Positions 17,343 through 43,922 of a stretch of 44,225 nucleotides of DNA are shown here, piece after piece. Origin of the DNA: Planctomycetota bacterium (GTDB lineage: Bacteria > Planctomycetota > Planctomycetia > Pirellulales > Thermoguttaceae); NCBI GenBank assembly GCA_029550925.1, contig JAKPGL010000141.1, forward strand, positions 1-44,225. The letters are read 5' to 3'. Position 1 is the first letter of the stretch. Each line of letters starts with the position of its first letter. The translations under genes and the position numbers were made by a program. The notes below the pieces were generated by a model that was given only the letters and a program-made list of their open reading frames with translations, did not search any database and was not told the origin of the DNA.

Positions 17343-18400
17343 GGGATAGACGCCACCTCCCCGCCTGCCATGGTCGAAAGCCGCTGAAGCACCACCGAAT
17401 CCGTGTTCTCCGAGAGGAAATGCACGGAGCCATCGGCCATCAGCACATGGGCGCCGCCCGGATGGAGACTGCCCATGTGGCCCCAACTGCGCAACTGTCC
17501 CCGCCGCGGATTGGCGATGATGCCGGGCCATTCCCAGCGGTTGATTCCGTAATTACCTACGTCAATGCCCACCATGACCCAACCCCGGTATCCCCAGGCG
17601 GCGCACTTGCCGTTATAGACATCGTACAACGTCTCGGCCATGGCGATCGTGTTGGCCGTGCCATCGAGAATGTCGGCGATGCGAGTCCCGGTGTCCTCGC
17701 CGAAGATTCGCCGGGTGGTGGGCGACTCCTTAGCCCAGGCTCGGCAATCGTAGCGGTAGCTGGTGCTGAAGTCGTAGTTAGTCTTTGCGCCGCGCAGGCC
17801 GCTTCCGGGTTTGATGCCATAATGAGGGCTATCGGCCGGAAGGTAAGGATCTCCATTGTCCGAAGGACATGAAAAGACGCTCAACCGGGTGGATACCACC
17901 GCCCCGTTGCCGCTAGCCACCGCATCGCCTGCCAATATGCCTGTAGCTGTGCAAGGACTGCAACAGCCCGTGTTGCCGTACATCGCGTTGCACGCACACT
18001 GCCGCCGGTCATATTTGTCATACAGCGGTTGCTGCTCCAGATAGGGCAGGAGCATCAACAGACCATTGGCGTTCAGCACAATGGGCGCAGCGCCTTGCTC
18101 CGGATAGGTACACCAGCCGTACCCAATCCCCGCTGGCGGAAAACTCCTCAAAGCCGCATGGTAATTGTGCAGAGCCAGGCCGATCTGCTTGAGATTGTTG
18201 GAGCATTGCATGCGCCGGGCCGCCTCCCGGGCCGCCTGCACCGCCGGCAAAAGCAAGGCGATCAATATCCCAATAATCGCAATAACGACCAATAGTTCCA
18301 CCAACGTGAAACCATGTAGCCCTGGGCCAAAGGCATTAGACCTCCGGCCAGGAAGTTGTGGAGCCATCCCCCTCCGTATGCCCGGCCCAATCCCCCCCAT
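17339..18400 (-). CDS. DUF1559 pseudopilin-like protein
   Basis: 353 residues. It has a prepilin-type N-terminus ([34 protein letters not shown]) with the Gly-Phe cleavage site. The first 90 residues carry [16 protein letters not shown], and the C-terminus has [19 protein letters not shown], the H-x9-DG motif of the family. Such proteins should be cleaved and methylated by a prepilin peptidase and assembled by a type II secretion or pilus-like machine; their exact role is unknown. ATG at 18400 has AAAGGAG upstream and is preferred over an ATG at 18433. It is translationally coupled to the lipoprotein gene. Confidence 0.92.
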
Positions 18401-18568
18401 AGCCCTGCTCCTTTCCGGATTGGAACGACACATTTGCCCTGGCGTTTCAAAGGCCTGGCCTTATAGATACTCATTAGGAAGCATTCTGGTAGTTTAAGAC
18501 CCACAGAATTGGCCTGTCAAGAGTGAGGCTAATCGAGGCACTCCCCAAAAGGCCTGAATCGGCGGCAA

Positions 18569-18599
18569 TCCCCCACTGCGAGCCGGTTGCAGTGGGGGA
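18569..18599 (+). other. Perfect 11-bp hairpin
   Basis: TCCCCCACTGC (18569-18579) pairs perfectly with GCAGTGGGGGA (18589-18599) around the nine-base loop GAGCCGGTT. It overlaps the left end of palindrome copy B. No T-run follows, so it may be a structural part of the repeat instead of a terminator. Confidence 0.4.
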
Positions 18600-18680
18600 C
18601 TTCAACTCCTATAGCTTGAGTAGCATTATGATGCTATCACAAGCAGTTGTGGGGCGGAGGCGACAACGCAACCAGTTCGA
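18580..18680 (+). repeat. Long nested palindrome, copy B
   Basis: Second copy of the element, with GAGCCGGTTGC at the left, central TAGCATTATGATGCTA (18621-18636, palindromic with one mismatch pair) and the right end GGAGGCGACAACGCAACC. It lies between the DUF1559 promoter region and tRNA-Lys. This gap of about 475 bp (18401-18875) holds no supported gene; open frames here are read through the repeat or antisense to the tRNA. Confidence 0.7.
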
Positions 18681-18875
18681 GCCTTCCAGGCTGCCCCTTG
18701 TTTTCTTGGACGGGGGAAATAAAATGGAGTTTTTCGGGCTTTGGAGAGGCAATCGTTTAGAGCAGACCTCTGAATTTCGCACTTTAGACAGGAGGATTCC
18801 GGAGAATACGCCTACTTCGGGAGCGGGGAGGTACCCTTGCCTGGAAAGTCCCGGTCTCTTGGCCGAGCTTCCCGG

Positions 18876-18948
<73 letters not shown>

Positions 18949-19077
18949 CTAAGTCTTTGTATTGGAATGGGTTGCGACAAGAAAGTTCTGGCGTAATCTG
19001 GAAAACCTCTAATTCTCGCGTCGAAATATCCCTAAAAAATTTCTGGGGTGAAGACGGGGAGTTGGTATCTGCTCTAT

Positions 19078-19341
19078 TTATTTAGGCTCCACCCATTCGA
19101 GGATCGAAACCACTGCGTTGGAGCGGGCGTTGTGATTGACGATCCTCAGAAGGAGTTGGCCCGGGTTGGTCAGGGGTGGGCCGACCGGCGTTTCGATCCA
19201 TTTGCCTTCCTCAAAGTTTTTGACTAGGCCAATCGACAGCTCCCCAAAAAGACCTCTTGGTCCCTGCCGTCCAGTCAAGACCAATTGCCTACCCGCCGAG
19301 CACAATGTCAGGAAATTGCTTGGGGGCGCTTGACAAGCCAA
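19078..19341 (-). CDS. Possible small protein with beta-rich C-terminus, TTG start
   Basis: 87 residues from a TTG at 19341. GGGAGGAT lies directly before it, but the spacing (about 2 bases) is shorter than usual. The C-terminal half (KWIETPVGPPLTNPGQLLLRIVNHNARSNAVVSILEWVE) reads like strands of a beta sandwich and not like random translation. Upstream in frame a stop occurs 24 bases before the TTG. I do not recognise it; it could be a short gene or the remnant 3' end of a larger one. Confidence 0.4.
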   Translation of the reverse strand: MACQAPPSNFLTLCSAGRQLVLTGRQGPRGLFGELSIGLVKNFEEGKWIETPVGPPLTNPGQLLLRIVNHNARSNAVVSILEWVEPK

Positions 19342-19457
19342 ATCCTCCCATCTGGAATGACGTTAGTTGTCCCGTTGCCGTGGGGTTCCTGCGGGCATCG
19401 CAAGACTAAGAACCCCGTAAACAGTCGCGGCGTCTTTTTGGCGAAAGGAATTTTCTC

Positions 19458-20828
19458 ATGATTTCAGGGCGTAAACGACTGGGGCGTAGAGTGACTCGGC
19501 GGGAATTCTTGCGGCGATCGGCGAGCGTGGTCGGGCTTGCGGGCTTGCCTACGCTGATTCCTGCTTCCGCGCTGGGGTTGGCGGACAAACCGGCTCCATC
19601 CGATCGGATAGTGCTGGCCTGTATCGGCATGGGCATTCAGGGCATGGGCAATATGCGCACTTTCCGCGGCAATCAGGACGTACAGGTCGTCGCCGTCTGC
19701 GATGTCCATCAGACGCAGCGCCAGCGGGCTAAGCAGGCCGTCGATGAATTTTATGACAATAAAGACTGCGCCGCCTACAACGATTTCCGCGAGCTGCTGG
19801 GACGAAAGGACATCGATGCGGTTCAGATTACCACTCCCGACCATTGGCATCCGATCATTGCGGTCGAGGCGGCCCGCCGCGGCAAACACATGTATTGTGA
19901 AAAGCCGATCGGCTGGAGTTTCCGTGCGGCCCAGGTGGTCCGAAAAGTCGTCAAAGAAACCGGTGTGGTGTTCCAGTTTGGCACCCAGCAGCGGTCCGAT
20001 CGGAAGTTTCGGTTTGCCTGCGAGCTGGTCCGTAGCGGGAAGATCGGCCAGTTGAAGACGATTCTGGTCGGTGTGCCGCCCAGTTGGACTTGTCCCAAGC
20101 AGCCGACTGAGCCGGTGCCGAAGGAGCTGGACTACCAGATGTGGCTTGGCCCGGCCCCGGAAGCCCCCTACTGTTATCAACGGTGCCGACCCTGGACGGA
20201 AAAGGAAGGCTATAGCGTCTGGTACAGCATCCTGGACTACTGTATGGGGATGATCGGCAATTGGGGTGTGCATCATCTGGACATTGCCCAGTGGGGCAAC
20301 GGCACCGAACTGAGCGCCCCCGTGGAAGTCCAGGGAAAAGGTGTTTTCCCTAAGGACATGTTGACCAATGCGGCCACCAGTTGGCAGGTGGAAAACCGGT
20401 ATGCCAACGGGGTGGTGCTGGTCCACATGGACGATCATACGGCCAAAAAGCACCCGCAGCAGGTGGCCGGGCATGGACATGGTGTTTTGTTCATCGGCAC
20501 GGAGGGCTGGATCCACGTCGATCGACAGAAATTGGAAGCCGAGCCGAAGTCGCTCCTGAAGCTAAAGCTCGGCCCCAATGATGTGCACCTCCAGGAGAGC
20601 AACAACCATCACGGCAACTTCATCGACGCAGTGAAGGGACTAACGAAGCCGGTCGCTCCGATCGACGTGGCGGTGCGTGTGGACGCCCTCTGCTGGTTGC
20701 AGCAGATTGCCATTTTGCTGGAGCGGCCTCTGCGGTACGATCCGACCGCTGAGGCGTTTGTCAACGATGAGGAGGCCAACCGCCTGCTGGACCGGCCCAT
20801 GCGCGCGCCGTGGAAATTAGAGGCCTAA
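19458..20828 (+). CDS. TAT-exported Gfo/Idh/MocA family oxidoreductase
   Basis: 456 residues. A twin-arginine signal peptide is clear: RRVTRREFLRRSASVVGLAGLPTLIPASA. The Rossmann domain (IVLACIGMGIQGMGNM, binding NAD(P)) carries the family markers TTPDHWHPIIAVEAARRGKHMYCEKPIG with the conserved Lys. The C-terminal alpha/beta substrate domain follows. TAT export of the folded, cofactor-loaded protein is typical of the large planctomycete branch of this family. The ATG at 19458 has AAAGGA upstream. The ceramidase-like gene starts 86 bp downstream on the same strand, so the two may form an operon. The substrate is probably a sugar or cyclitol, by family only. Confidence 0.92.
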   Translation: MISGRKRLGRRVTRREFLRRSASVVGLAGLPTLIPASALGLADKPAPSDRIVLACIGMGIQGMGNMRTFRGNQDVQVVAVCDVHQTQRQRAKQAVDEFYDNKDCAAYNDFRELLGRKDIDAVQITTPDHWHPIIAVEAARRGKHMYCEKPIGWSFRAAQVVRKVVKETGVVFQFGTQQRSDRKFRFACELVRSGKIGQLKTILVGVPPSWTCPKQPTEPVPKELDYQMWLGPAPEAPYCYQRCRPWTEKEGYSVWYSILDYCMGMIGNWGVHHLDIAQWGNGTELSAPVEVQGKGVFPKDMLTNAATSWQVENRYANGVVLVHMDDHTAKKHPQQVAGHGHGVLFIGTEGWIHVDRQKLEAEPKSLLKLKLGPNDVHLQESNNHHGNFIDAVKGLTKPVAPIDVAVRVDALCWLQQIAILLERPLRYDPTAEAFVNDEEANRLLDRPMRAPWKLEA

Positions 20829-20914: not shown

Positions 20915-22372
20915 ATGAAAGTTTTCGGCTGCGTTGTTCGAGCGGGTTTGGCGATTGCGGTAAGTGCGGCGTTTTGGGCGGCCGGTCTGACGGCGGCTTG
21001 TGGGGGCGAACTTTGGGTCGGATCGGCTACGGTCGATATCACCCCCGATAAACCCGTCGCCTTGCAGGGCCAGTTTCATCTGCGGATTTGCAAGGGTGTG
21101 GATAATCCCCTACGGGCCGTCGCCGTCGCCCTGGAAACCCGGCAGGCCGACCATGCCGAAGACCAGGCCATTTTCATCTCCTGCGACCTGACCGGCATTA
21201 CCGAGGAGTTGCAACAGAAGTTGCGGGATCGGCTTCGGCAGGAGTTGGCCGATTTTGATGGGCGGAAGCTCGTGCTTACAGCCACCCATACCCATACCGC
21301 CCCGGTGCTCAATTCTTCCTGGTATGAGATTCCCAAACAGGGCGTCATGCAGCCGGCGGAGTATCTGGATTTTCTGGTGGATCGGCTGGTGCAGTTGGCC
21401 AGCCAGGCCTGGAAAGGCCGAAAGCCAGGCGGCGTTAGTTGGGGGCTGGGGTATGCGGTGGTAGGGCACAATCGGCGGGCCGTCTATGCGGACGGCTCGG
21501 CCATCATGTACGGCCCAACCAACCGGCCCGACTTCCAAAACTTCGAAAGCGGCGAAGACCACGGCGTGGAAATGCTCTTTTTCTGGGATGGGCAAAAACA
21601 GCCTATTGCCGTGGCCATTAACGTCGTTTGCCCGTCGCAGGAACTCGAAAGCCGCACAACGATCAACGCCGACTTTTGGCATGATGTGCGGGAGCAATTG
21701 GGGGCCAAATATCCGGGGCTTTGTGTGTTGGCTTGGCCTGGGGCCGCTGGCGACCAATCGCCGCATCTCATGTACCGAAAGGCGGCAGAGGAGCGGATGC
21801 AGAGGCTTCGCAAACTTTCGTCCACCCAGGAGATCGCCCGCCGGATTGCCCGAGAGGTGGAAGACGTTTTGGAACTTACCCGGCAGGATATCCATACTGA
21901 TGTACCGCTCGTGCATCGTGTGGAGGACCTGGAGCTGCCCAAGCGGAAGGTTACGCCGGAGGAAGCCGCCGCCGCCCAGGCCGAGGTAGATGCCCTCCTG
22001 AAGAAAGCCTCGCCCGGCCCGGCTGATCACGCCCGCCGGGTCTGGCACCAAAAAGTGATCGATCGGTTCCAAATCCAGGAAAAAGAGCCGAACCTGACCA
22101 TCGAGCTCCACGTAATTCGGCTTGGCGAGGTGGCCATTGTTACCAACCCGTTTGAGCTGTTTCTGGACTATGGCCTGCGTATGAAAGGCCGGAGCAAGGC
22201 GCTGCAGACCTTTGTGGTCCAGTTGACGGCCGGTTCGGCCGGGTATCTGCCCACGAAAAAGGCGGTGGCCGGCGGCGGCTATAGTGCGGTGGTTCAGAGC
22301 AGCCGGGTCGGTCCCGAAGGCGGCCAAAAACTGGTCGATCGCTCCGTTGAACTGATCAACAGCCTGTGGTAA
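20915..22372 (+). CDS. Secreted neutral/alkaline ceramidase-like protein
   Basis: 485 residues with a Sec signal peptide (about 1-30, ending TAACGG). The mature N-terminus ELWVGSATVDITPDKPVALQGQ is the start of the neutral/alkaline non-lysosomal ceramidase N-terminal domain. The ATHTHTAP histidine cluster and AWPGAAGDQSPH are present; the latter resembles the GDxSP segment holding the nucleophilic serine of true ceramidases. Planctomycetes have many such proteins and the real substrates are unknown. The ATG at 20915 follows AAGGAG; upstream in-frame starts overlap the previous gene. A shorter, more diverged relative lies at 42516. Confidence 0.85.
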   Translation: MKVFGCVVRAGLAIAVSAAFWAAGLTAACGGELWVGSATVDITPDKPVALQGQFHLRICKGVDNPLRAVAVALETRQADHAEDQAIFISCDLTGITEELQQKLRDRLRQELADFDGRKLVLTATHTHTAPVLNSSWYEIPKQGVMQPAEYLDFLVDRLVQLASQAWKGRKPGGVSWGLGYAVVGHNRRAVYADGSAIMYGPTNRPDFQNFESGEDHGVEMLFFWDGQKQPIAVAINVVCPSQELESRTTINADFWHDVREQLGAKYPGLCVLAWPGAAGDQSPHLMYRKAAEERMQRLRKLSSTQEIARRIAREVEDVLELTRQDIHTDVPLVHRVEDLELPKRKVTPEEAAAAQAEVDALLKKASPGPADHARRVWHQKVIDRFQIQEKEPNLTIELHVIRLGEVAIVTNPFELFLDYGLRMKGRSKALQTFVVQLTAGSAGYLPTKKAVAGGGYSAVVQSSRVGPEGGQKLVDRSVELINSLW

Positions 22373-23041: not shown

Positions 23042-26000
23042 ATGAAGAACTTTTGGCGGTTTGTTTGGGTCTTTGGGATCGCAGTGGGAGGGGCGGCGGG
23101 ACTCCGGGGTGTCGCTGCGGCGGAAGGGGTGCAGCCGGTACCAGCGGATTGGACTCCGACGGACATGCGCCCGGTGTTTCCGGTCGAGGCGACGGCTTCG
23201 TCCACCTTCTTGGGAGCAGGCGGTCCTTATGCGCCCGAGCTGGCCATTGACGGCGACCGGCGCACCAAATGGGTGGCCGAGAAACAACCTACTGCCCAGT
23301 CGCCCCAATGGATCGTCTTGGAGCTTGCAGGGGAGCAGGAGGTGGTGGGATTGGCCCTTTTTGGCGAGCGGACCGACAACGATGGGGTGCTGGATGCTCA
23401 GGTGCAGTCGGCCGGCCCGGGACAGGATGGGTTCACCACCGTCGCCGAGGTCAAGGACGCCCAAACCGCCTTCTGGCTAGTGCGGTTTGCGCCGGTGAAG
23501 ACGAGCAAGGTGCGGCTTTTGATCACTCGATCCGGCGGACCCAGCACGCATACGGATATCTATGAGATTGTTCTCTTGGGTCGGCCTCTGTCGCCGGAGC
23601 AGCTCAAGGCCGAGGTTGCCGCCCATCTCCGCACTGGCGAGGAACAGATGAAAACTGTTCAGGAGGCCATCGGCAAATGGCCCACCGATCAACTCGCCGC
23701 GATCCCATCGGTGGTGCAACGGGCCAACGCCCTAGCCGAGCAGTGGAAGACACTGGCCGCCCGGTTTGCCCAGTGGGACCGCCTGGACGCAGACGCCCAG
23801 AGGGAACTGGCCGAGACGGCCCAGCGATCAGCCATATATTGGAAGAGGTATGGTCCCCGTCTCCAGGAGGCGGCGGCGATCTGGTCGGGCAGGCTGGCGG
23901 AGATGCAATCCCTGCGGCGGTCGGCCCAGGAAGTCGGCCCGGTCGAAAAGGCGGCGGCTGCCCGTACCGAAAAAGGTATTCGACTTCTCAACCAGCATGT
24001 GTTTGTTCGGTTAAACGAAGCGGACAACCAGTGGGAAGCCGTCTGGTCGGGGCCGGTGGAGGCCGCCCTCCGAGGCGTATGCATGGCGGTCGAGGTGAAC
24101 GGTCAGCCGCTGGCGATCCCTCCAAGCAAGGCGGAAATCGTTCCGGTTACCGACAAATTAGGCGCCGGCGTCTCGGTGCGACAACATTGGGAACAGGGCG
24201 GCCTGGTGGTCGAACGAGAGATCAAACTCTATGACGGCAAACCAGCGGTTGTGCTTACGGGCCGGATCATCAATCGCACTGATCGCGAGGCGGCGATTGG
24301 CCACGTGCGGTTGGTGGATATGGAGGACGGCCAGAACGCCTGGTGGTATGCGGGCGATCCGGTCCAGGCGCCAGGGGCGGTCTATGTAGCCGGTATTTCG
24401 GAGCTTTCCAGCCAGCCGATTGTCAAATCGTTCGAATCGGAAGGCCAGCGCCGGCAGTTTGCCGGTACGTGTGTGCTGGCCATGGGGCATGAGGCCCCGG
24501 GCGGGGCGCTGGTGTTGGGATACCTGACCGCGCTGGAGGCGAGGCCGGATGTCTATGCTCGGTTTGAGGCCCCGCGGGCCGGTGCGGCCCTGAGGACGGA
24601 GCAACGTTTTCTGGACCGAAAACTGCCGGCTGGGGCGACGTTCGAACTGGATGCGGTTTATGTGTCGGCGCACCGGGACGTGTATGAAGCCCTGGAACAT
24701 TACGGGGACGCCGTTGCCGCCGCCAGCCGACTGCCGGTACGAAAAGGTCCTACTTCGCTTTGGTGCAGTTGGTACGCCCATCGGATGGCCATGACCGAGG
24801 AGTTGGTCTTGGCCAATGCGGCGGTAGCGGCCAAGCACTTCAAACCCCTTGGGATGGAGATCATCCAACTAGACCACGGTTGGCAACGCGGCGACATTAC
24901 CGGGGATTGGGTCCCGAACGAGCGGTTTCCGCACGGGTTGGCCTGGCTGGCCGACGAGTTGAAAAAACGCTATGGGTTCCAATTGGGCGTATGGATTTCG
25001 CCCACGGATGTGGCCGAGACCAGCCAGACCTTCCGCCAACATCCGGACTGGATGCTCAAAGACGAGCAGGGTCGGCCTCGGATCAATTGGCGATGGTATT
25101 GGAAGCCCAATCCAAATTGCTACGAGCTGGACGCTTCGCATCCGGAGGCGGCGAGGTTCATTCGGGAGACGTTCGCTCGGCTTTCCGGCGAAGGGGTGCG
25201 GTATTACAAGATCGATTTCATTGGGGCCTGTGCGGGCGAACATTTCGTGCAACACGACCCGACGGTTACCCGCGGTTGGGGCGTGCTGCGGCGGGCGATG
25301 GAGGCCGTGCGCGAAGGAGCTGGCCCGGAGGCCTGGATCCGCTACTGTCAGACGCCGCCCCTGTTGTCGGTGGGGTTGGCCAGTAGCGCCTACGGCGGCT
25401 CGGATACGCTGGACGCCGGCCTGGGCGGTCGGATCGACGTATTGCGCACCAACGCCCACAGCCTGGCCGCCGGCTACTGGATCAATGACCGCCTCTACCA
25501 CCGGGAAGTCTGCGATATGAGCGTACGAATGCACGCGCCGGTGGAAGAGGTGCGGATACGACTGGCCATGATGGCCCTAGCGGGCTGTAGCATTTCGTTT
25601 AGCGACGAGTTCCAGTATCTGCCGCCCTCGCGGATTCGTATGATGCAACAGGCCCTACCGCCCGGATCGCCGCCGATGAGGCCGCTCGACCTGCTCCAGC
25701 GAACAATTCCTTCGGTCTGGCATCTTCGTTGCAAGACCGAGGCGGATCAGTGGGACGTGGTGGGACTATTTAACTTTGAGGATCGGCCCGAAGAGCGGAC
25801 CGTGGAGTTGGCCCGACTTGGGCTAAAACCGGACGAACCCGTAATAGCCTTCGAGTTTTGGGAAGAAAAATTGTTAGGCGTGATGCGAGATCGGCTTACC
25901 CTCTCCATGCCGCCGCAAAGCAGCCGGATTGTCTTCTTACGCCCCTTGGCGGGCCGACCGCAATTTGTGGGTACAAATATGCATCTATTGGGCGGCTGGC

Positions 26001-26290
26001 ATGAACTTCAAAAGCTCCATTGGGACGGGCAGAAAAGGGTGCTCTCTGGCCGATACCATCGGGCGCCGGGCTTGGAAGGCAAAACTTTTTTCTACGTCCC
26101 GCCGGACTACCAGCCGCATTTCGATTTCCCCTTGAACCCCAGCTCCGCCCGGCTGACCAATGTGGGCGGCGGCCTGTGGATGCAAGAGGTCCAGTTCCAA
26201 CAGGCCGATGTCGAATGGTCCATCCCGTTCGACGGTCCAGAGGGTAAGCCCGAACCGACCCCAAAACAAGAACCCAACCAAACCCAATAA
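23042..26290 (+). CDS. Secreted GH36/clan GH-D alpha-galactosidase-like glycosidase
   Basis: 1082 residues with a Sec signal peptide (about 1-28). Residues about 45-180 are an F5/8 type C (discoidin) domain with AIDGDRRTKWVAE. A helical stretch follows (about 190-310), then a beta-rich N-terminal supersandwich domain and a TIM barrel. The barrel shows LDHGWQ, WISPTD, YYKIDFI with the likely nucleophile Asp725, and GGRIDVLRTN with the likely acid/base Asp799, as in melibiases. After a C-terminal beta domain there is an extra beta-rich segment (about 970-1075) and a short Pro/Glu tail. The ATG at 23042 has GGAG upstream. It is first in a five-gene operon and probably cuts alpha-linked sugars outside the cytoplasm. 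Exact linkage cannot be read from sequence. Confidence 0.88.
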   Translation: MKNFWRFVWVFGIAVGGAAGLRGVAAAEGVQPVPADWTPTDMRPVFPVEATASSTFLGAGGPYAPELAIDGDRRTKWVAEKQPTAQSPQWIVLELAGEQEVVGLALFGERTDNDGVLDAQVQSAGPGQDGFTTVAEVKDAQTAFWLVRFAPVKTSKVRLLITRSGGPSTHTDIYEIVLLGRPLSPEQLKAEVAAHLRTGEEQMKTVQEAIGKWPTDQLAAIPSVVQRANALAEQWKTLAARFAQWDRLDADAQRELAETAQRSAIYWKRYGPRLQEAAAIWSGRLAEMQSLRRSAQEVGPVEKAAAARTEKGIRLLNQHVFVRLNEADNQWEAVWSGPVEAALRGVCMAVEVNGQPLAIPPSKAEIVPVTDKLGAGVSVRQHWEQGGLVVEREIKLYDGKPAVVLTGRIINRTDREAAIGHVRLVDMEDGQNAWWYAGDPVQAPGAVYVAGISELSSQPIVKSFESEGQRRQFAGTCVLAMGHEAPGGALVLGYLTALEARPDVYARFEAPRAGAALRTEQRFLDRKLPAGATFELDAVYVSAHRDVYEALEHYGDAVAAASRLPVRKGPTSLWCSWYAHRMAMTEELVLANAAVAAKHFKPLGMEIIQLDHGWQRGDITGDWVPNERFPHGLAWLADELKKRYGFQLGVWISPTDVAETSQTFRQHPDWMLKDEQGRPRINWRWYWKPNPNCYELDASHPEAARFIRETFARLSGEGVRYYKIDFIGACAGEHFVQHDPTVTRGWGVLRRAMEAVREGAGPEAWIRYCQTPPLLSVGLASSAYGGSDTLDAGLGGRIDVLRTNAHSLAAGYWINDRLYHREVCDMSVRMHAPVEEVRIRLAMMALAGCSISFSDEFQYLPPSRIRMMQQALPPGSPPMRPLDLLQRTIPSVWHLRCKTEADQWDVVGLFNFEDRPEERTVELARLGLKPDEPVIAFEFWEEKLLGVMRDRLTLSMPPQSSRIVFLRPLAGRPQFVGTNMHLLGGWHELQKLHWDGQKRVLSGRYHRAPGLEGKTFFYVPPDYQPHFDFPLNPSSARLTNVGGGLWMQEVQFQQADVEWSIPFDGPEGKPEPTPKQEPNQTQ

Positions 26291-26362
26291 CCGGCCGAAA
26301 CGCCGTCGCCATTTCCACGGCAGATCGGAGTTTTGCCTGCGCCCTGTGTAGGAAAAACGTCC

Positions 26363-28066
26363 ATGTATAACGCCTTCGATTTTCTGTTTTTTCTGGGGAC
26401 GCTCTTGGGCGTGATGGCAGTGGGGTTCTGGACGGGTCGGCAAGAGAAGAAGTCGGTGAGCGGGTATTTTCGCGGCGGCAACCAACTGCCCTGGTATGCG
26501 ATCGGCTTTTCCATTGTGGCCGCCGGCATTAGCTCCGAGCAGTTCGTCGGCGAAATGGGCTACGCCTACAAGCTGGGGATGCCGGTGGTGAATTGGGAAT
26601 GGTTGGTGTTTCCGGCGTTGTCGGTTCTGCTGTGGATTTTCGTGCCTTTGTATGTACGGCATGGGATCACCACGATGCCGGAGTATCTCCAAAAACGATT
26701 CGGCCCCCACACGCGAACCATCTATGCGTACCTATCGACGGTAAGCTATATCTTCGTCAATTTTGCGTTGGTGTTTTATACGGGCGGGTATGCGTTGGAG
26801 CAGATGTGGGGGCTGGATCGGCTGTGGGCGGTGTGGGGGCTGGCATTGCTGACTGGACTGTACACGGTCTATGGCGGGCTGTCGGCGGTGGCATGGACCA
26901 GTTCGCTTCAGTGTATCTTGTTGCTAGGGGGCGGACTGTACGTATTTTTTTCCGGCATGTGTGCAATCCAGTGGGATTTCCGAGCGATGTTGGGCGAGGG
27001 CCAGCAGGCCCACCTGGCTGTCCCGGCGGACCACCCTGAAGTGCCTTGGCCCGCCTTGATCATCCTGGCCCTTTCGACCAATCCTTGGTACTACGCCGCC
27101 AATCAGTACATCAACCAACGGTGCCTGGCCGCCCGGGATGAATGGCATGCGAAAATGGGGGTACTTTTTGCGGGCGGCTTGCAACTGCTGATTCCATTGG
27201 CGACTTGTTTCCCGGCGATGGCGTACCGGGTGATCCAACCGGCGCTGAGCGACCATAATGCGGCGTATCCCGCCTTGGTGGCGGCGTTTGTGCCGGTTGG
27301 TTTGCGGGGGCTGGTGGCCGCGGCGATTGTGGGCGCCATTATGTCCACTATCTCTGGACTGGTCAATTCGACTTCGACCATCGTTACGTTGGACATTGTC
27401 CGGCGGGGCGTGGGGCGAGATTGGTCCGAGGAGCGATTGGTTCGGGTGGGCCGATGGTCTGGTGCGGCGGCTCTGTTGATCGGCGCCCTGTTTGCGCCGG
27501 TGGTCATGCGATGGGAAAGCCTGTTTCGATACGCCCAGGACATTTGGGCGCCCATGGCTGCTCCGGTGGTGGTCGTCTTTTTGGCCGGCGCGCTATGGGA
27601 AAAGGCCGATCGGCGAGGCGCCAACTGTTGTCTTTGGCTCGCCTTGTTCACCGTACCGTTGACCCTGACCAAGTCCCTGCTGGCGGACAGGGGAATCCAC
27701 TTTTTGCCGGAAAACTTGGAAAATCCCATGGTTTTGGCCGGCGCAGTCAGTTTGGCCTCTTGGGCGCTGATGGCGGTGTTTTCCTTGGTGCGATCCTGGG
27801 CGGCGGCCCTAGCGCTGGCGGCGTTGGGCTGGGGACTGATCGGTCTGATTGCGGTCCAAAGTCCGGCGGCCACGGCCCTGCTGCTGGCGGCGGTGATGGG
27901 CTTGACGGTGGGCTGGCCTCTGGTGCGAAGGAAGGCCCCGGCTGCTGCCCTGTGGGACCGCTCCATGTTGCAAACGCCGGGTCAGCGGCCTTGGTACGGG
28001 AACTTATCGTTTTGGTGGGGCTTGTTTGCCGGCGTTTTGGGCTTTTTGTATTTCCTATTTTGGTAA
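26363..28066 (+). CDS. Sodium:solute symporter (SSS family)
   Basis: 567 residues with about 14 hydrophobic segments. The N-terminus NAFDFLFFLGTLLGVMAVGFWTGR and the cytoplasmic loop with SVSGYFRGGNQLPWYAIGFSIVAAGISSEQFVG are the opening of the SSS/SGLT family, which couples Na+ influx to uptake of sugars, amino acids or vitamins. Sequence identity by eye is closest to the sugar-type branch (GYAYKLGMPVVNWEW). The ATG at 26363 follows AGGAAA. It lies 72 bp after the glycosidase gene and 12 bp before the MttB-like gene, so it probably imports a product of the glycosidase or the substrate of the next enzymes. Confidence 0.92.
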   Translation: MYNAFDFLFFLGTLLGVMAVGFWTGRQEKKSVSGYFRGGNQLPWYAIGFSIVAAGISSEQFVGEMGYAYKLGMPVVNWEWLVFPALSVLLWIFVPLYVRHGITTMPEYLQKRFGPHTRTIYAYLSTVSYIFVNFALVFYTGGYALEQMWGLDRLWAVWGLALLTGLYTVYGGLSAVAWTSSLQCILLLGGGLYVFFSGMCAIQWDFRAMLGEGQQAHLAVPADHPEVPWPALIILALSTNPWYYAANQYINQRCLAARDEWHAKMGVLFAGGLQLLIPLATCFPAMAYRVIQPALSDHNAAYPALVAAFVPVGLRGLVAAAIVGAIMSTISGLVNSTSTIVTLDIVRRGVGRDWSEERLVRVGRWSGAAALLIGALFAPVVMRWESLFRYAQDIWAPMAAPVVVVFLAGALWEKADRRGANCCLWLALFTVPLTLTKSLLADRGIHFLPENLENPMVLAGAVSLASWALMAVFSLVRSWAAALALAALGWGLIGLIAVQSPAATALLLAAVMGLTVGWPLVRRKAPAAALWDRSMLQTPGQRPWYGNLSFWWGLFAGVLGFLYFLFW

Positions 28067-28078
28067 ACGGGCGTGAAT

Positions 28079-29518
28079 ATGGAATTGGCCAAACTTCGAG
28101 TCCTTTCGGACAAAGAAATCCAACAGATTCATGAGGCTACGTTGGAGATTTTATCGCAGTGCGGCGTGAAGATGCACCACCGGCCCATGCTCTGCTTTTT
28201 GAAAGAAAAGGGAGTGACGGTGGACATGGAGTCGGGAATCGTGCGATTTTCTCGCAGTGCGATTGAAGACGCCTTGGCCGCTGCGCCGCCGCAGTTTGAG
28301 GTGTTTGATCGGCAAGGGCGGTTGGCGTATGTGCTGGGGGACCGCCGAGCGAAGATAGCGGCCGGGCACAATGCGGTGTTTTGGGTGGATAGCGAGACGG
28401 GCCAGACCCGTCCGGCCCGCGTGGCCGACGTGGAACTGTTCGCCCGCATCTGCCAACAGTTGGAATGCATCGACATGATCGGCATCCCGGTCATGCCGCA
28501 GGACGTGCCGGAACCCAGGGCGACGCTCCTCTATGGCGTGCGTGCGGTGATCGAAAACAGCACAAAACCGATCTATTTTTCCACGGACAACGGGAAGGCG
28601 AATCGGGCGTGCATCGAGTTGGCCAGAGCGGCCTTTGCCGGGCGGTTGGAAGAACAGGTCTATGCCATTAGTCAACTTTCGTCCACTAGTCCGCTTTACT
28701 GGGAAGGCGGCGTGTTGGACGCCATTATGGATACGGTTCCGGCGGGCGTCCCGCTGGCCATCCTGCCGGAGCCGATCGCCGGATTCACCGCCCCATACAC
28801 CTTGGCCGGCCTGGTAACGATGAATAACGCCGAATGCCTGTCCGGGTTAGTGATGATCCAATTGCTCCAGCCGGGGGCAAAGTTTCTGTACGCCAACTCC
28901 TGGACCACGCTGGACATGCGAACCGCCTCGGCCCTGGTGGGTTCCACGGAAACGAGCATCTGCCGAATCGCCGGGGCGCAATTGGCCCATTTTTATCGGC
29001 TTCCCTGCCATACGACCGCCCCCAACTCGGACAACCACGCCCACGACGAGCAAAACGCCTGGGAAAAGACCTTTAGCCAATTCTGCGCCATTGCCGCCGG
29101 CAACGACCTGATCGTCAACTGCGGGATGTTCGCCACCGGGTTGACGTGTAGCCATGAACAATTGATCATGGACGAAGAAATCTCGGCGATGGCCCGCCGG
29201 ATCGCCGAGGGCCTGCTGGTCAGCCCAGAGACCATCGCCGCGGACCTAATCCGGCAGATCGGCCCGCGCGGCGAAGGGTATCTGACCTGTGAGCATACGC
29301 TTCAATGGCTCCGGTCGAAGGAATATGTGCGTCCGCGGCTTTCGGTGTGCGGTCCGCGCACGGTGTGGGAAGCCCGCGGGGCCAAGGACACCTACCAGAT
29401 CGCCCGGGACAAAGTGCGTCAGTATGCGGCGCAGACCGAGCCAACCGACCCTCTGCCGGAGTCCATCCGCCGACACTTGACGGAAATCATCGCTTCCTTT
29501 GAAAGGGAATTGCCATGA
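28079..29518 (+). CDS. MttB-family (trimethylamine methyltransferase-like) protein, non-pyrrolysine
   Basis: About 479 residues, full length for the MttB superfamily (PF06253), TIM-barrel enzymes that move a methyl group from a quaternary amine to a corrinoid protein. The N-terminal KLRVLSDKEIQQIHEATLEIL and the run VAPNSDNHAHDEQ-type acidic/His segment in the C-terminal half fit the family. There is no in-frame TAG, so it lacks pyrrolysine and belongs with MtgB-like members. No corrinoid (MttC-type) gene lies in the window, which is odd for a methyltransferase. A GTG at 28073 is an alternative start. Its stop overlaps the next start as ATGA. Confidence 0.88.
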   Translation: MELAKLRVLSDKEIQQIHEATLEILSQCGVKMHHRPMLCFLKEKGVTVDMESGIVRFSRSAIEDALAAAPPQFEVFDRQGRLAYVLGDRRAKIAAGHNAVFWVDSETGQTRPARVADVELFARICQQLECIDMIGIPVMPQDVPEPRATLLYGVRAVIENSTKPIYFSTDNGKANRACIELARAAFAGRLEEQVYAISQLSSTSPLYWEGGVLDAIMDTVPAGVPLAILPEPIAGFTAPYTLAGLVTMNNAECLSGLVMIQLLQPGAKFLYANSWTTLDMRTASALVGSTETSICRIAGAQLAHFYRLPCHTTAPNSDNHAHDEQNAWEKTFSQFCAIAAGNDLIVNCGMFATGLTCSHEQLIMDEEISAMARRIAEGLLVSPETIAADLIRQIGPRGEGYLTCEHTLQWLRSKEYVRPRLSVCGPRTVWEARGAKDTYQIARDKVRQYAAQTEPTDPLPESIRRHLTEIIASFERELP

Positions 29519-30927
29519 GTTCTTCTACGATGAGTAAACCCATCTTGGCAATCAACGGTGGTCCGAAGGCGTTTCCTGGTCCTCGGGGCCGAATGCAACC
29601 GAAGATCGGCCCAGAAGAATTTCTTTCGGTGGCCGAACGATTCGGTCTGCCGCCCGAAGCGATCGAAAAGATTCGCGCGGTCGTCTGCGCGGTCGATTGG
29701 GGCCGGGGACCAACCCTCTCCCGCTACGCCACGGCCCATCCCCGACCGTCCAAAGGCGAAGTGCTGGAACAGGCGGCCAAGGAGATATTCGGCGTCCGAT
29801 ATGTGCTGCCAGTCAGTTCGGGCACCGGGGCGTTGCACAGCGCTTTTGTGGCCGTCGGCGTCGGACCAGGCGCAGAAGTGATCGTTCCGGCGATCGGCTT
29901 TTTCGCCACGGCCTCTGCGGTGGTGATGGCCCGCGGCGTGCCTGTCTTTTGCGATGTGGATGAGTCGTTGCACATCGACCCGGCGAAACTCGAGGAAAAG
30001 ATCACGCCGCGGACCGTTGCCATTGCGCCGACCTGCGTGATGGGTGGTGTGCCGGACCTGGAACCCATCCTTCAGATCGCCCGTCGGCATGGATTGAAGG
30101 TGGTGGAAGACTGCGCCCAGTCGCCGGGGGCCAAGTACAAAGGGAGGTATGTGGGCGCGTGGGGCGACATAGGTTGTTTCAGCATCTCGGCTTACAAGGT
30201 GGTTGGGGGCGGAGAGGGGGGCTTGGTAGTAACAAATGATCAACGACTCTACGAGCGGGCCTGCCAGTTGGCCGAGGCAGGCGGACTGTGGCGACCCGAC
30301 CGTTTTGCCCCGCCCCGGTACCCAGGGGAACTCTTCTGCGGCACAAACTACCGGATGTCGGAACTGGAAGCCGCCGTCAATGTGATCCAGTTGCGCAAAA
30401 TGCCGGGTTTGGTCGAACGATATAACTGGGTGCAGCGGATGATTCTCGGTCGGCTGAAGACATACCGGGAAGTGCAGCCGGTGCGACGCAACGACCCGGA
30501 AGGCGGCGTGGGCTATAATATCCGGTTTTTCACTTCGTCGGTCGAATTGGGCCGGAAGATCGCCGCCGCCCTGAACGCCGAGGGGATTGGTTGCGGCCAA
30601 TTTCTCTGGCCAGCCGAGTGTGCGATCCGCGGGCCGGATGCCCCGCCCGACTGGCATGTGTATCGGTATATGTTTCCTCTGATCCTCCAGGGCGCACCGA
30701 CGGAAACGCTCTGTCCGTTCGAGTGTCCGGTATATCGTGAGCGAGGCGGCCAGATCAACTATCGGCCCGACGATTGCCCCACCGCCGCCGACCTATTTGA
30801 CCGAAACATCATGATCTGGTTGGAGTCCTGGTACAACGACGAGGATTGCCAGGCCATCGCCGCTGGGATCAATAAGGTGCTAGACGCCTATTGCACGGAA
30901 GACCCTTCAGCGCCCGGTTGGGTATGA
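29515..30927 (+). CDS. DegT/DnrJ/EryC1/StrS-type aminotransferase
   Basis: 470 residues. A PLP enzyme of the sugar aminotransferase family: the PLP-binding SSGTGALHSAF, the EDCAQSPGA segment with the ring-nitrogen Asp, and FSISAYKVVGGGEGG with the likely internal-aldimine Lys228 are in the usual order. Such enzymes aminate keto-sugars or keto-cyclitols, or run in reverse. A non-canonical stretch of about 40 residues near 270-300 and the long C-terminus make it longer than typical (about 380). Translational overlap with the MttB-like gene implies the two products work together. Confidence 0.92.
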   Translation: MSSSTMSKPILAINGGPKAFPGPRGRMQPKIGPEEFLSVAERFGLPPEAIEKIRAVVCAVDWGRGPTLSRYATAHPRPSKGEVLEQAAKEIFGVRYVLPVSSGTGALHSAFVAVGVGPGAEVIVPAIGFFATASAVVMARGVPVFCDVDESLHIDPAKLEEKITPRTVAIAPTCVMGGVPDLEPILQIARRHGLKVVEDCAQSPGAKYKGRYVGAWGDIGCFSISAYKVVGGGEGGLVVTNDQRLYERACQLAEAGGLWRPDRFAPPRYPGELFCGTNYRMSELEAAVNVIQLRKMPGLVERYNWVQRMILGRLKTYREVQPVRRNDPEGGVGYNIRFFTSSVELGRKIAAALNAEGIGCGQFLWPAECAIRGPDAPPDWHVYRYMFPLILQGAPTETLCPFECPVYRERGGQINYRPDDCPTAADLFDRNIMIWLESWYNDEDCQAIAAGINKVLDAYCTEDPSAPGWV

Positions 30928-30958
30928 GGCGGCTGGCTGACGGAAAGGAGCACTTGGG

Positions 30959-31780
30959 ATGATCACCATAGGAGTTTGTCTGGAGACGGTGTTTACGGAT
31001 CGGCCTGCGCCGGAGCGGATCGCTCGGATCCGCCAAGCAGGGTTTAGCGGTGTGGAATTTTGGCATCCGGAGGGCACCTGGGACGGATCGACCATTCGGC
31101 GGGATTGGGCCAAAGATCCGCAACAGCTCCGAGAGGCCGCCGAACAGCAGGGAGTGGTCCTCACGGATTTTGCCCTTCATGCGTGGGATGGGTCGATTGG
31201 CGGTTCGCCGGTCAACCCGGCCGATCATCCGAAATATATCGATCAGGTCCGGCGGATGCTTGCCTTTGCCCAAGCCGCCGGCATCCGCAAGGGAATCACC
31301 CTGTCCGGCACGGCGGCGCCTGGCTTATCCCGAACACAAATGCGGGAGCATCTGGAAAAGGCCCTTCTCCAGGCGGTCGAATTGGCCCGACAGGCCGATT
31401 TCCTTCTCCTGTTGGAGCCGCTCAATACGCTGGTGGATCACCCCGGCTACTATCTGGACTCCAGTCGGGAGGCGGTCCAGATCATCCGCTCCATTGGCAG
31501 CCCGCATCTAAAAATGCTCTACGACATTTACCACATGCAGATCATGGAAGGCAACGTACTAGCGACGATCGAACAACACCTGGACTGTATCGGGCATTTC
31601 CACGCCGCCGGCGTCCCCGGCCGAGGCGAACTGTTCACCGGCGAGCTTCACTATCCGAATATCCTTCGCCGATTGGAGTCGCTGGGATACGAAGGCAGTT
31701 TCGGCCTGGAGTATTTTCCGACGCTGCCTGACCCGCAGGAGTCGCTCCGGCAGACCTACCGATACGTATTCGGCGGTTAG
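30959..31780 (+). CDS. Hydroxypyruvate isomerase-like TIM-barrel sugar isomerase
   Basis: 273 residues of the AP-endonuclease-2 / sugar phosphate isomerase fold. The Hyi-type signatures are LLEPLN (Glu153), YDIYHMQIMEGN, GHFHAAGVPGRGEL with a tract leading to HYPNI, and FGLEYFP (Glu251). The two Glu residues are at the positions expected for the metal-bound proton transfer. ATG at 30959 follows AAGGAG. It is last in the glycosidase operon. It could act on hydroxypyruvate or on a keto-sugar produced by the aminotransferase; context favours the latter. Confidence 0.88.
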   Translation: MITIGVCLETVFTDRPAPERIARIRQAGFSGVEFWHPEGTWDGSTIRRDWAKDPQQLREAAEQQGVVLTDFALHAWDGSIGGSPVNPADHPKYIDQVRRMLAFAQAAGIRKGITLSGTAAPGLSRTQMREHLEKALLQAVELARQADFLLLLEPLNTLVDHPGYYLDSSREAVQIIRSIGSPHLKMLYDIYHMQIMEGNVLATIEQHLDCIGHFHAAGVPGRGELFTGELHYPNILRRLESLGYEGSFGLEYFPTLPDPQESLRQTYRYVFGG

Positions 31781-31788
31781 CCGAGGCA

Positions 31789-32955
31789 TCATTCCTGCTG
31801 CCGGAGTTGGCATTGGCGTCGGTATTCGCTGGGCGTCATGCCGGTCAGTTTTTGAAACACGACGGAAAGGCGCTGCGGGGTGGAGAATCCGCAGCGGCGG
31901 GCGATTTGGAGCAATTTCCAATCCGTTTCGTTGAGCAACTGTTTGGCGTATTCGATCCGGGCGTGATGGATTTCTTCCAGGACCGAGCGACCCAAAATTT
32001 TACGGAACTTCTCCTCCAGGGCGCGACGGCGGACGATCAATTGGTCGGCCAGTTCGGCCACTTTGAATCGACGGTCCACATGGTTTCGGATCAGGTGTAG
32101 GGCCTCCGCCACCACCGGGTCTTCGACCGCCAAGGTACTGGTGGATTGTCGGGCGACCACTCGAAGCGGCGGCAGGAAAAGTGGTTTGGCAGGCGGCGGA
32201 TGGCCCGAAAGCATCCGATCCAGCACCCAGGCCGCCTCATACCCAATCCGCTCTCCAGGAATCGCTACGCTGGAAATCGGCGGAAACGCCAACTGACATT
32301 CCAACTCGTCGTTATCCACGCCCAAAATAGCCGCCTGTTCCGGCACACGGAGCCCTATCTGTTGGCAGGCGTCGGCCAGATCGTGGGCCGCCACATCATG
32401 GTCGGCCAAAATCGCCACCGGCTTGGGCAGGTTCTCCAACCATCGCCGAACCTGCTGATCTACCCGCTTCCAACTGACCGGCGCCGGCAGCCTCGGAATG
32501 TATTCCACATGGCAGGAGGAAACTGGAAAGCCTGCTTTCTCGATCTGTTGGCGGAAACTGGCCTCCCGAAGCCGACTATAATACGCCGTCCCGCTCCCAT
32601 AAAATCCATAATGCCGATAACCGCGCTGGAGGAAATGCTCGGCGGCCAGTCGGCCAACCGCCTCGTGATCTACATCGACCACCGGGACCTTGAACCCCTG
32701 GAGCACACAGCCGGTATCCACCACCGGTTTGCGCAGCCGCAAAATCTGCCGAGCAAACTGCACATCGACCAAATGGGCGATGATCCCGTCCGGTTGCCAC
32801 TCCCGCACCACGGGCGTAATCGCCGGTTCTGCCGGCGCATTGCGAAACACCCAGTCCCGCTTCTGAAGACCGTAGGCGTGAATCCCCCGAAGCACCTGTC
32901 GGTGGAATTCTGCATCCTGCCCCATTAACAGCGCAATCCGCCGCACTCGCCCCAT
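31789..32955 (-). CDS. XylR-type transcriptional regulator (LacI-like sensor + AraC DNA-binding domain)
   Basis: 388 residues. The N-terminal two thirds (about 5-275) is a periplasmic-binding-protein-like sensor (RRIALLMG..., DGIIAHL, FYGSGTAYYSRLREASF, VDNDELECQLAFPPISSVAIP) as in XylR. The C-terminus has two AraC-type helix-turn-helix segments (FKVAELADQLIVRRRALEEKFRKILG and LLQIARRCGFSTPQRLSVVFQKLTGMTPSEYRR). These proteins bind a sugar and activate transcription from direct-repeat half-sites. ATG at 32955 has GGGAGG at 6-bp spacing; a TTG at 32961 is less likely. It is convergent with the operon and is the best candidate for reading the GCGCAAAAC repeats. Confidence 0.93.
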   Translation of the reverse strand: MGRVRRIALLMGQDAEFHRQVLRGIHAYGLQKRDWVFRNAPAEPAITPVVREWQPDGIIAHLVDVQFARQILRLRKPVVDTGCVLQGFKVPVVDVDHEAVGRLAAEHFLQRGYRHYGFYGSGTAYYSRLREASFRQQIEKAGFPVSSCHVEYIPRLPAPVSWKRVDQQVRRWLENLPKPVAILADHDVAAHDLADACQQIGLRVPEQAAILGVDNDELECQLAFPPISSVAIPGERIGYEAAWVLDRMLSGHPPPAKPLFLPPLRVVARQSTSTLAVEDPVVAEALHLIRNHVDRRFKVAELADQLIVRRRALEEKFRKILGRSVLEEIHHARIEYAKQLLNETDWKLLQIARRCGFSTPQRLSVVFQKLTGMTPSEYRRQCQLRQQE

Positions 32956-32965
32956 CGGCAACCTC

Positions 32966-33402
32966 CCTACGTAACTAGGCTGTCCAGGCTGAGCAATGCG
33001 CCCGCTGGACAGCGGGCGTTACGTAACTTAGGCTGTCCAGCCTGAGTTGCCGCCGGCTAAACAGCCGGCGTTACAATCGCCGGCTTGACAGCCGTCGTTA
33101 CGAGTAACCGCTGTTTACACACCCGGCGCTACGGCCAACACCTACTTTTATAGAATACCCTGCCTTCTGGCGACAGAGCAAGTCGGTTACGTAACTTAGG
33201 CTTTCCAGGCTGAGGAATGCGCCCGCTCGACAGCGGGCGTTACGTAACTTAGGCTGTCCAGCCTGAGTCAGCCGCCGGCTAAACAGCCGGCGTTACAATC
33301 GCCGGCTTGACAGCCGACGTTACATCTGGGCCCGCTCGACAGCGGGCGTTACGTAGCTTGGCCTGTCCAGCCTGAGTCAACCGCCGGCTAAACAATCGGC
33401 GT
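32966..33402 (+). repeat. Hairpin array 2
   Basis: The longest array. A higher-order unit of about 130 bp occurs twice (33000-33110 and 33215-33330) with the order: GCCCGCTGGACAGCGGGC (33000-33017); AGGCTGTCCAGCCT (33030-33043); GCCGGCTAAACAGCCGGC (33052-33069); GCCGGCTTGACAGCCG (33079-33094). A 55-bp non-repeat spacer lies near 33125-33180. It fills the gap between the regulator and the DUF1559 promoter region; the only other thing here is operator b. Confidence 0.75.
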
Positions 33403-42515: not shown

Positions 42516-43922
42516 ATGCCAAGGGGGCGAACGTGGTTGAGCCTGTGGTCATGGGTCGGTCTGGCGGGGTTGGCGGCAAGCGTGGGAGTGGGCTGGCCGG
42601 AGGCGTTCGGCGCAGAAACCGCTCCAGAGACCAAAACCCCGCCTGCCGCGCAAAACGAGCTTCGGGTGGGGGCAGCCGCCGTGGAACTGCAAGCCGACGA
42701 CAACATGCCCATTGCCGGCAGCATCCACGCCTGGTATGCCAAAGGGCAAGAGGGCAAACTCCGGGCTTTGGCCGTCGTGCTCCAAAAAGCCGACCAGCCG
42801 CCGGTAGCCATCGTGGCCTGTGATATTCTGATCATGGCGCAAGACCTCCTGTCGCCGGTTTTCGACCAGATCGAGCGGCGCTGTAAGATCCCAGCAAGCC
42901 ATGTACTCGTCCATGCCACCCACACACACCACGCGCCCAGCACATGCCGGGTCCACGCTTACGGGCCGGACGAACGGTTTTGCCGGGAGGTGCAAAAGGC
43001 CATTCCCGAGGCGGTTGCCGCAGCCCAGGCCCGGCTTGCTCCAAGCCGATTTTTCTACGCCAAGGGCGAAGAAAAGACCATCGGCCAGAATAGTCGGCTC
43101 CTGCTGCAAGACGGTGCGATCTTTTGGATCGGGCCTCGGAACGATGTGGTTCGGCCGACCGGGCCGGTCGATCCCGATGTGCCGGTGCTAGTGTTTCGTT
43201 CGCCGGAGGATAAACTTCAGGCGATGCTTTTCGGCCATTCGGCCCATACGATCGGCGGCCTCAAGGGCGGCGTGCGGTCGCCTGCCTTTTACGGTCTGGC
43301 CGCCCAAAGTCTGGAAGAACAATACGGCGGCATCGTGGGGTTTTTAGAAGGGGCCAGCGGCTCGACCCATCGGCTGGATGTGTCGGCGGCGGATGCTTAC
43401 AAGCGGATCCGCCAGGTAGTGGAACAGACGATGCAATCGGCCAAGCCGACGCCTGTCGATAAACTGGCCGCCCTGAAAAAGCCGTTCACCTTCCGATATC
43501 GGCGTTTCGACGAATCGGCCGAGGAAAAGGCGGTTACCGAGTATTGTCAGAAGCGGGTGGGCGGCCAAAGGGCGGAGTCCATTGCCGCCGTCTTCCGCCA
43601 GATGCGCAAAGAGCTGGCCCCCTTGCAGGGCAAAGAAAAAACCACCTGGCTTCAGGTCCTACGCATTGGGCCGGTGGCTGTGGTGGGAGTGCCGGGCGAA
43701 ATGTTTACCGCTCTGGGCGTGGAGATCAAACGCCGATCGCCGTTTAAGGAAACCGTAGTCGTAGAACTGGCCAACGACTGGATCGGCTACATCCCGGACG
43801 CCGAAGGCCATCGGTTGGGCGGTTACCAGGTCTGGACCGGCCTCCACAGTTACGTGGAACCCGGCACCGGCGAGCGCATGGTCGATCAAGCCGTCGAAAT
43901 GCTCCGCAGCCTGGCCGACTAA
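42516..43922 (+). CDS. Secreted ceramidase-like protein, diverged
   Basis: 468 residues with a signal peptide (about 1-32). The mature N-terminus ELRVGAAAVELQADDNMPIAGS and VHATHTHHAPSTCRV retain the metal-binding His cluster of the neutral/alkaline ceramidase N-terminal domain, and the tail DWIGYIPDAEGHRLGGYQV matches the protein at 20915. The serine-bearing GDxSP stretch is not found; the equivalent place reads LEGASGSTHRLD. It may therefore hydrolyse a different amide or ester. ATG at 42516 follows AAAGGAG. It is isolated, downstream of the third nested palindrome. Confidence 0.82.
   Translation: MPRGRTWLSLWSWVGLAGLAASVGVGWPEAFGAETAPETKTPPAAQNELRVGAAAVELQADDNMPIAGSIHAWYAKGQEGKLRALAVVLQKADQPPVAIVACDILIMAQDLLSPVFDQIERRCKIPASHVLVHATHTHHAPSTCRVHAYGPDERFCREVQKAIPEAVAAAQARLAPSRFFYAKGEEKTIGQNSRLLLQDGAIFWIGPRNDVVRPTGPVDPDVPVLVFRSPEDKLQAMLFGHSAHTIGGLKGGVRSPAFYGLAAQSLEEQYGGIVGFLEGASGSTHRLDVSAADAYKRIRQVVEQTMQSAKPTPVDKLAALKKPFTFRYRRFDESAEEKAVTEYCQKRVGGQRAESIAAVFRQMRKELAPLQGKEKTTWLQVLRIGPVAVVGVPGEMFTALGVEIKRRSPFKETVVVELANDWIGYIPDAEGHRLGGYQVWTGLHSYVEPGTGERMVDQAVEMLRSLAD

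Follow-up and report, generated by a model that had tools for sequence, protein, structure and literature searches.

An MttB-superfamily gene within a conserved carbohydrate operon of Planctomycetota, with a corrinoid partner probably encoded elsewhere

What does an MttB-superfamily protein do in an operon of carbohydrate genes, and how does it work there if no corrinoid protein is encoded beside it? These questions are raised by a locus on contig JAKPGL010000141.1 (44,225 nt; C125 of genome G000 in our numbering) of a Thermoguttaceae draft genome of the Planctomycetota (completeness 97.5%); the window analysed here is this entire contig. No B12-binding gene is present in the operon. A sequence-only reading had regarded the five genes and their regulator as an undescribed unit without a corrinoid partner, which might process an N-methylated compound, an amino-sugar or a cyclitol, or in which the MttB-like protein might perform different chemistry. 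We find that the gene order is conserved well above chance and that the corrinoid helper is probably encoded elsewhere in the genome. We give a slightly better than even chance to the view that the operon breaks down a methylated compound resembling a sugar or cyclitol, by means of a corrinoid-dependent demethylase served by a shared corrinoid protein in trans. The genes are as follows.

23042..26290, + strand: secreted glycoside hydrolase (GH) with a GH36/melibiase-type barrel, a signal-like N-terminal stretch and an F5/8 type C domain (PF00754, 1.3e-10; PF02065, 7.8e-15)
26333..28066 (alternative ATG at 26363), + strand: sodium:solute symporter (SSF), SGLT type (PF00474, 1.6e-59)
28079..29518, + strand: MttB-superfamily protein (PF06253, 6.7e-83)
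29515..30927, + strand: DegT/DnrJ/EryC1/StrS aminotransferase (PF01041, 1.5e-67)
30959..31780, + strand: AP_endonuc_2 protein (xylose-isomerase-like TIM barrel), hydroxypyruvate-isomerase/ketose-epimerase-like (PF01261, 2e-35)
31789..32961, - strand: convergent XylR-type regulator with a sugar-binding part like that of periplasmic binding proteins and an AraC helix-turn-helix (PF13377, 5.1e-38; PF12833, 3.2e-19; PF22177, 3.7e-05)

Reading frames are open in all six genes, including the convergent regulator, and with the Pfam families this bears out the operon and the coordinates first proposed for it. The short gaps reported for it also stand (approximately 42-72 nt between the glycosidase and symporter genes, 12 nt before the MttB-like gene and 31 nt between the DegT and AP_endonuc_2 genes), as does the ATGA (CCATGAG) in which the MttB-like stop and the DegT start overlap; this is the sole overlap in the operon, where several had been described. 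Promoter and terminator scans of the operon gave no excess over shuffled sequence, and an Rfam search returned zero matches within it.

Searching 84,980 species genomes with a three-orthologue alignment yielded 53 loci. About 50 of these fall in one clade at 59-77% identity, the exceptions being two outliers at 43% and a near twin (94%) in another Thermoguttaceae metagenome-assembled genome (MAG), the closest record in the search. The clade is tight, uncharacterised and monophyletic, with a support of 0.999 in a tree with 33 other superfamily sequences. Its hosts are Planctomycetota, Hydrogenedentota, Lentisphaerae, Armatimonadota, Kiritimatiellota and Spirochaetota; Chloroflexi, Acidobacteria, Actinomycetota, Omnitrophota and others are represented by one record each. 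The phyla are MAG labels, and contamination of some bins is possible.

Within 10 kb of the clade MttB gene, a DegT gene is found at 21 of 48 loci, an AP_endonuc_2 gene at 20 and both at 16. Within 1.4 kb the counts are 13/48 and 14/48, respectively, compared with 0/28 at other MttB loci (Fisher p ~0.001) and 0/20 in control regions from clade genomes; because many loci end at contig edges, these linkage counts are lower bounds. The neighbourhood survey which the sequence-only reading had recommended thus came out in favour of a conserved order. Recurrent neighbours are SSF symporters, GH36, GH2, Gfo/Idh/MocA proteins, an MR_MLE-type enolase and second AP_endonuc_2 genes, and neighbouring spirochaete MttB families are likewise linked to DegT. 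In the 94% twin (L045:7111-8292) a URO-D-like gene sits between the glycosidase and symporter genes, and such a gene adjoins MttB at approximately seven of the 48 loci, L045 included; since the window genome yields no match to it, it is not essential. Our literature search returned nothing on point for MttB alongside DegT or alongside hydroxypyruvate isomerase, or for sugar-linked MttB. The view of the locus as a conserved and undescribed unit is supported.

No corrinoid gene lies within 1.6 kb of any of the 48 clade members, compared with 6/28 for other MttB loci in the phylum sample (p 0.002); at 31 of the 48 loci the available DNA extends 1.6 kb or more on both sides. The lack of linkage first noticed in the window therefore extends to the clade, and a corrinoid gene conserved next to close homologues did not appear. 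In the spirochaete locus L094 a corrinoid gene is located about 8 kb from the clade member, beside another MttB gene. A related family member in that locus (18225-19670), which shares H97/N98/Q199/W275/H311/H320/N347 with the clade, has a corrinoid gene about 40 nt downstream. This spirochaete region (L094:1-21422) carries several MttB-like genes of different families along with DegT, URO-D, fucose-isomerase-like and corrinoid genes, and in its host genome the MttB matches number at least 25 and the corrinoid matches at least 11.

Missing linkage is no evidence that the corrinoid protein is absent. Genes for two stand-alone corrinoid proteins lie on contigs C225 and C42 of the window genome. 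The C225 protein possesses both B12-binding domains, its best PDB matches are 1y80 and MttC (7xcn_M), ahead of any methionine synthase, and its gene adjoins that of a PF00809 methyltransferase. A complete RACo reactivase is found on C84 and a stand-alone PF02574 protein of 315 aa on C78; no full-length MetH is present in the window genome. Judged from sequence, the separate corrinoid, PF00809 and PF02574 genes appear to make up a split methionine synthase. What is lacking from a typical corrinoid system is the adjacent cognate gene, which is usual and not universal; a corrinoid protein and a reductive activase are present at the genome level.

The same is true of the clade. A stand-alone MttC-like corrinoid protein (E < 1e-30) occurs in 43 of 48 clade genomes vs 115 of 389 other genomes sampled from the window's phylum, and a RamA/RACo reactivase in 48/48 vs 122/389, a comparison that ignores relatedness and is drawn between sets of unlike phylum composition. 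Throughout the phylum sample the corrinoid protein accompanies any MttB relative in 28/29 genomes, compared with 90/363 genomes without one, and in the nine genomes where the clade protein is the only MttB a stand-alone corrinoid gene is invariably present. We consequently reject the proposition that no partner exists, and with it the claim that the window protein lacks one. With trans sharing documented and the corrinoid module present in clade genomes, a shared trans-acting corrinoid protein is the simplest explanation, and from this we surmise that the MttB-like protein pairs with the C225 protein.

Two known systems resemble this arrangement. In Ruegeria pomeroyi, the stand-alone corrinoid and PF00809 proteins MtgC and MtgD work for a split methionine synthase and also for the MttB-family enzyme that demethylates glycine betaine (PMC12478193). 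The window genome shares with it the stand-alone corrinoid, PF00809, RamA-like and PF02574 proteins, the lack of full-length MetH and a corrinoid subunit encoded apart; in Ruegeria, however, the substrate is glycine betaine and the pairing was demonstrated genetically, whereas ours is deduced. Likewise, MtqC of Eubacterium limosum is common to MtpB, MtcB and MtyB (PMC8604678), so that several enzymes of the MttB family can draw on a single corrinoid protein, although this organism is an acetogen and the substrates are quaternary-amine acids.

Two further loci of the window genome carry corrinoid or MttB-like genes. The second stand-alone corrinoid protein of the window genome (C42:39031-39648) adjoins a URO-D/MtaA-like protein, possibly as a separate methyl-transfer system. 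The genome's second MttB-like gene (L042:2702-5030, contig C15) follows a short-chain dehydrogenase/reductase (SDR) gene and has no adjoining corrinoid gene; proteins similar to it in L028 and L029 adjoin one.

The assignment of the window protein to the MttB fold and superfamily is solid. It scores 278.8 bits against PF06253 (cut-off 25), and its AlphaFold2 model (pLDDT 88.3) matches the glycine betaine:corrinoid methyltransferase MtgB of Desulfitobacterium hafniense (2qne/9yce; Z 46, root-mean-square deviation 2.8 over 464 residues) and MttB, the trimethylamine:corrinoid methyltransferase of Methanosarcina barkeri (7xcl; Z 45), over the full length (464-466 residues). The structure prediction suggested earlier thus recovered the fold, with loops 315-324 and 349-354 falling below a pLDDT of 50. 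Like MtgB, the protein is a non-pyrrolysine member of the superfamily: a pyrrolysine codon is absent and the position of Pyl334 is occupied by Asn316, invariant in 47/47 sequences. Its score against TIGR02369 (trimethylamine methyltransferase) is 363 bits, under the cut-off of 525, and the AP_endonuc_2 protein reaches 173.8 bits against TIGR03234 (hydroxypyruvate isomerase), below the cut-off of 353; both are therefore relatives of, and not, the named enzymes.

Gly372 of MttB contacts the corrinoid (PMC9842639). Its equivalent, Gly354, is invariant in the clade, and the C-terminal region is kept, including the dimerisation loop that touches MttC in 7xcn. Further differences from MttB are Glu231 for Met249, Val346 for Tyr364 and the unlinked MttC. 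Compared with MtgB, to which identity is 27-28%, the pocket changes are Y to H97, L to E231, L to N316, H to N347 and A to C348 (among quaternary-amine enzymes this comparison covers the MtgB sequence only), and the locus has carbohydrate neighbours in place of linked mtgC and mtgA. His97, His311, His320, His322, Asn347 and Cys348 are invariant in the 47 clade sequences and absent at these positions in both MttB and MtgB. From the alignments, the protein seems to have kept its corrin side and to have been remodelled on the substrate side; a clade-specific zinc or other metal site built from the invariant His, Cys and Glu residues is a candidate, at the level of a guess.

The remaining proteins provide indications of the substrate. 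The glycosidase scores 55.1 bits against the GH36 melibiase profile PF02065 (cut-off 27), its closest PDB relatives being the alpha-galactosidases 6lcj (9.4e-32) and 1zy9. The nearest solved structure to the symporter is the galactose transporter vSGLT (8.9e-72), followed by SGLT1/2, with all others much lower, which favours a polyol-like cargo over betaine. At what we take to be the sugar-contact positions of vSGLT, Q69, E88, N260 and Q428 are kept, and K294 and S91 are replaced by Q and V, respectively. Together the SGLT-type transporter and the sugar-type regulator support a sugar-type cargo. DegT scores 228.8 bits against PF01041, with KdnA (5k8b, 5.7e-47) as its best PDB match; its pyridoxal phosphate lysine K228 is intact, as in 25 of 26 neighbour DegT sequences, and the putative metal ligands E153, D189, H215 and E251 of the AP_endonuc_2 protein are present in 20/20 neighbours. 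Both enzymes consequently look catalytically intact.

The pathway may be catabolic and its substrate sugar-like. The exported GH36-type enzyme would release the compound from a (galacto)side and the SGLT-type symporter would take it up. The MttB-like protein might then strip a methyl group onto the C225 corrinoid protein, which probably doubles as the corrinoid subunit of the split methionine synthase; the adjacent PF00809 protein could pass the methyl on to tetrahydrofolate, with RACo rescuing oxidised cobalt. DegT, by amino/keto exchange, and the metal-dependent isomerase/epimerase would channel the skeleton into central metabolism. A methylated amino-sugar or cyclitol, as first suggested, is compatible with the neighbouring genes. 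We consider it rather unlikely, though worth stating, that the clade demethylates a non-amine, namely a sugar or cyclitol carrying an O-methyl group (such as a pinitol/ononitol-type methyl ether from an alpha-galactoside), borrowing the split-MetH corrinoid subunit. An alpha-galactoside of O-methyl inositol is our guess at the substrate, attractive because every gene would get a job; the literature search returned nothing on point for corrinoid demethylation of O-methyl sugars or for pinitol demethylation.

Several observations weigh against a methylated sugar as substrate and against the C225 pairing. The glycosidase had to be rejected as a fixed part of the conserved unit, being present at few loci; elsewhere there is a GH2, a different GH36, a pectate-lyase-like protein or no such gene. 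The C225 corrinoid protein is also found in two genomes of the same family without an MttB match (G167 and G357), so that its presence alone does not prove pairing and methionine synthesis could explain it. A good corrinoid match is lacking in five clade genomes (G394, G398, G399, G401 and G420), drafts that are possibly incomplete. We know of no MttB-family enzyme that demethylates a quaternary amine fully to the primary amine for DegT. Finally, all characterised MttB relatives act on methylammonium compounds and none on a sugar (PMC12155760).

The main rival, unlikely in our estimate, is an ordinary quaternary-amine demethylase acting on a betaine-type substrate with its corrinoid in trans, and lying beside carbohydrate genes by chance or co-regulation. 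The fold and family membership fit this; the known non-pyrrolysine members all use acidic quaternary amines (PMC12155760) and the trans corrinoid has its precedent (PMC8604678). However, the linkage to DegT, AP_endonuc_2 and sugar genes recurs across phyla, with DegT also in the neighbouring spirochaete families, the importer is SGLT-like and not a betaine carrier, and the pocket positions are unlike those of MtgB and MttB.

Different chemistry for the MttB-like protein is possible, but the missing corrinoid gene can now be accounted for without it. We judge it quite improbable that the clade has left methyl transfer for a corrinoid-free reaction, for instance that of a metal-dependent lyase or isomerase with a sugar acid or keto-sugar as substrate. 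The 0/48 loci with a linked corrinoid gene would agree with this, and the invariant H97, E231, H311, H320, H322, N347 and C348, near the former Pyl and Tyr sites, would suit a metal site, although that site is guesswork; the corrinoid protein in 43/48 genomes and RACo in 48/48, the retention of Gly354 and the partner-binding region, and the corrinoid-linked relative in L094 argue otherwise. It is very improbable that the operon is biosynthetic, with the MttB-like protein and DegT modifying a sugar or cyclitol destined for a polymer of the cell surface. Most DegT families are sugar aminotransferases of biosynthetic pathways and at least one locus (L087) adjoins a glycosyltransferase, but the secreted glycosidase, importer and sugar-type regulator indicate catabolism, and MttB enzymes are known to donate methyl groups to corrinoid, not to methylate.

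As of 2025, physiological substrates were known for only six members of the MttB superfamily, all of them amines (PMC12155760). The chemistry of the family would be widened by a conserved sugar-catabolism clade spread over uncultured Planctomycetota and several further phyla, which could explain oxygen-free use of methylated sugars. Were the O-methyl proposal true, this would be the first MttB-family methyl-ether enzyme and a way to demethylate methoxy-sugars without oxygen. The MttB-like, corrinoid and reactivase genes form a ready set for testing.

Two neutral-ceramidase-like proteins are encoded in the window (20918-22372 and 42516-43922); the gene for the first comes immediately after one for a Gfo/Idh/MocA protein and lies 0.65 kb upstream of the operon. 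Palindromic repeats resembling repetitive extragenic palindromes (REP) occupy positions 32965-33400, upstream of the regulator gene; the REP-like repeat GACAGCGGGCGTTACGTA occurs in 13 copies genome-wide, four of them in the window, compared with 0 for the reversed control.

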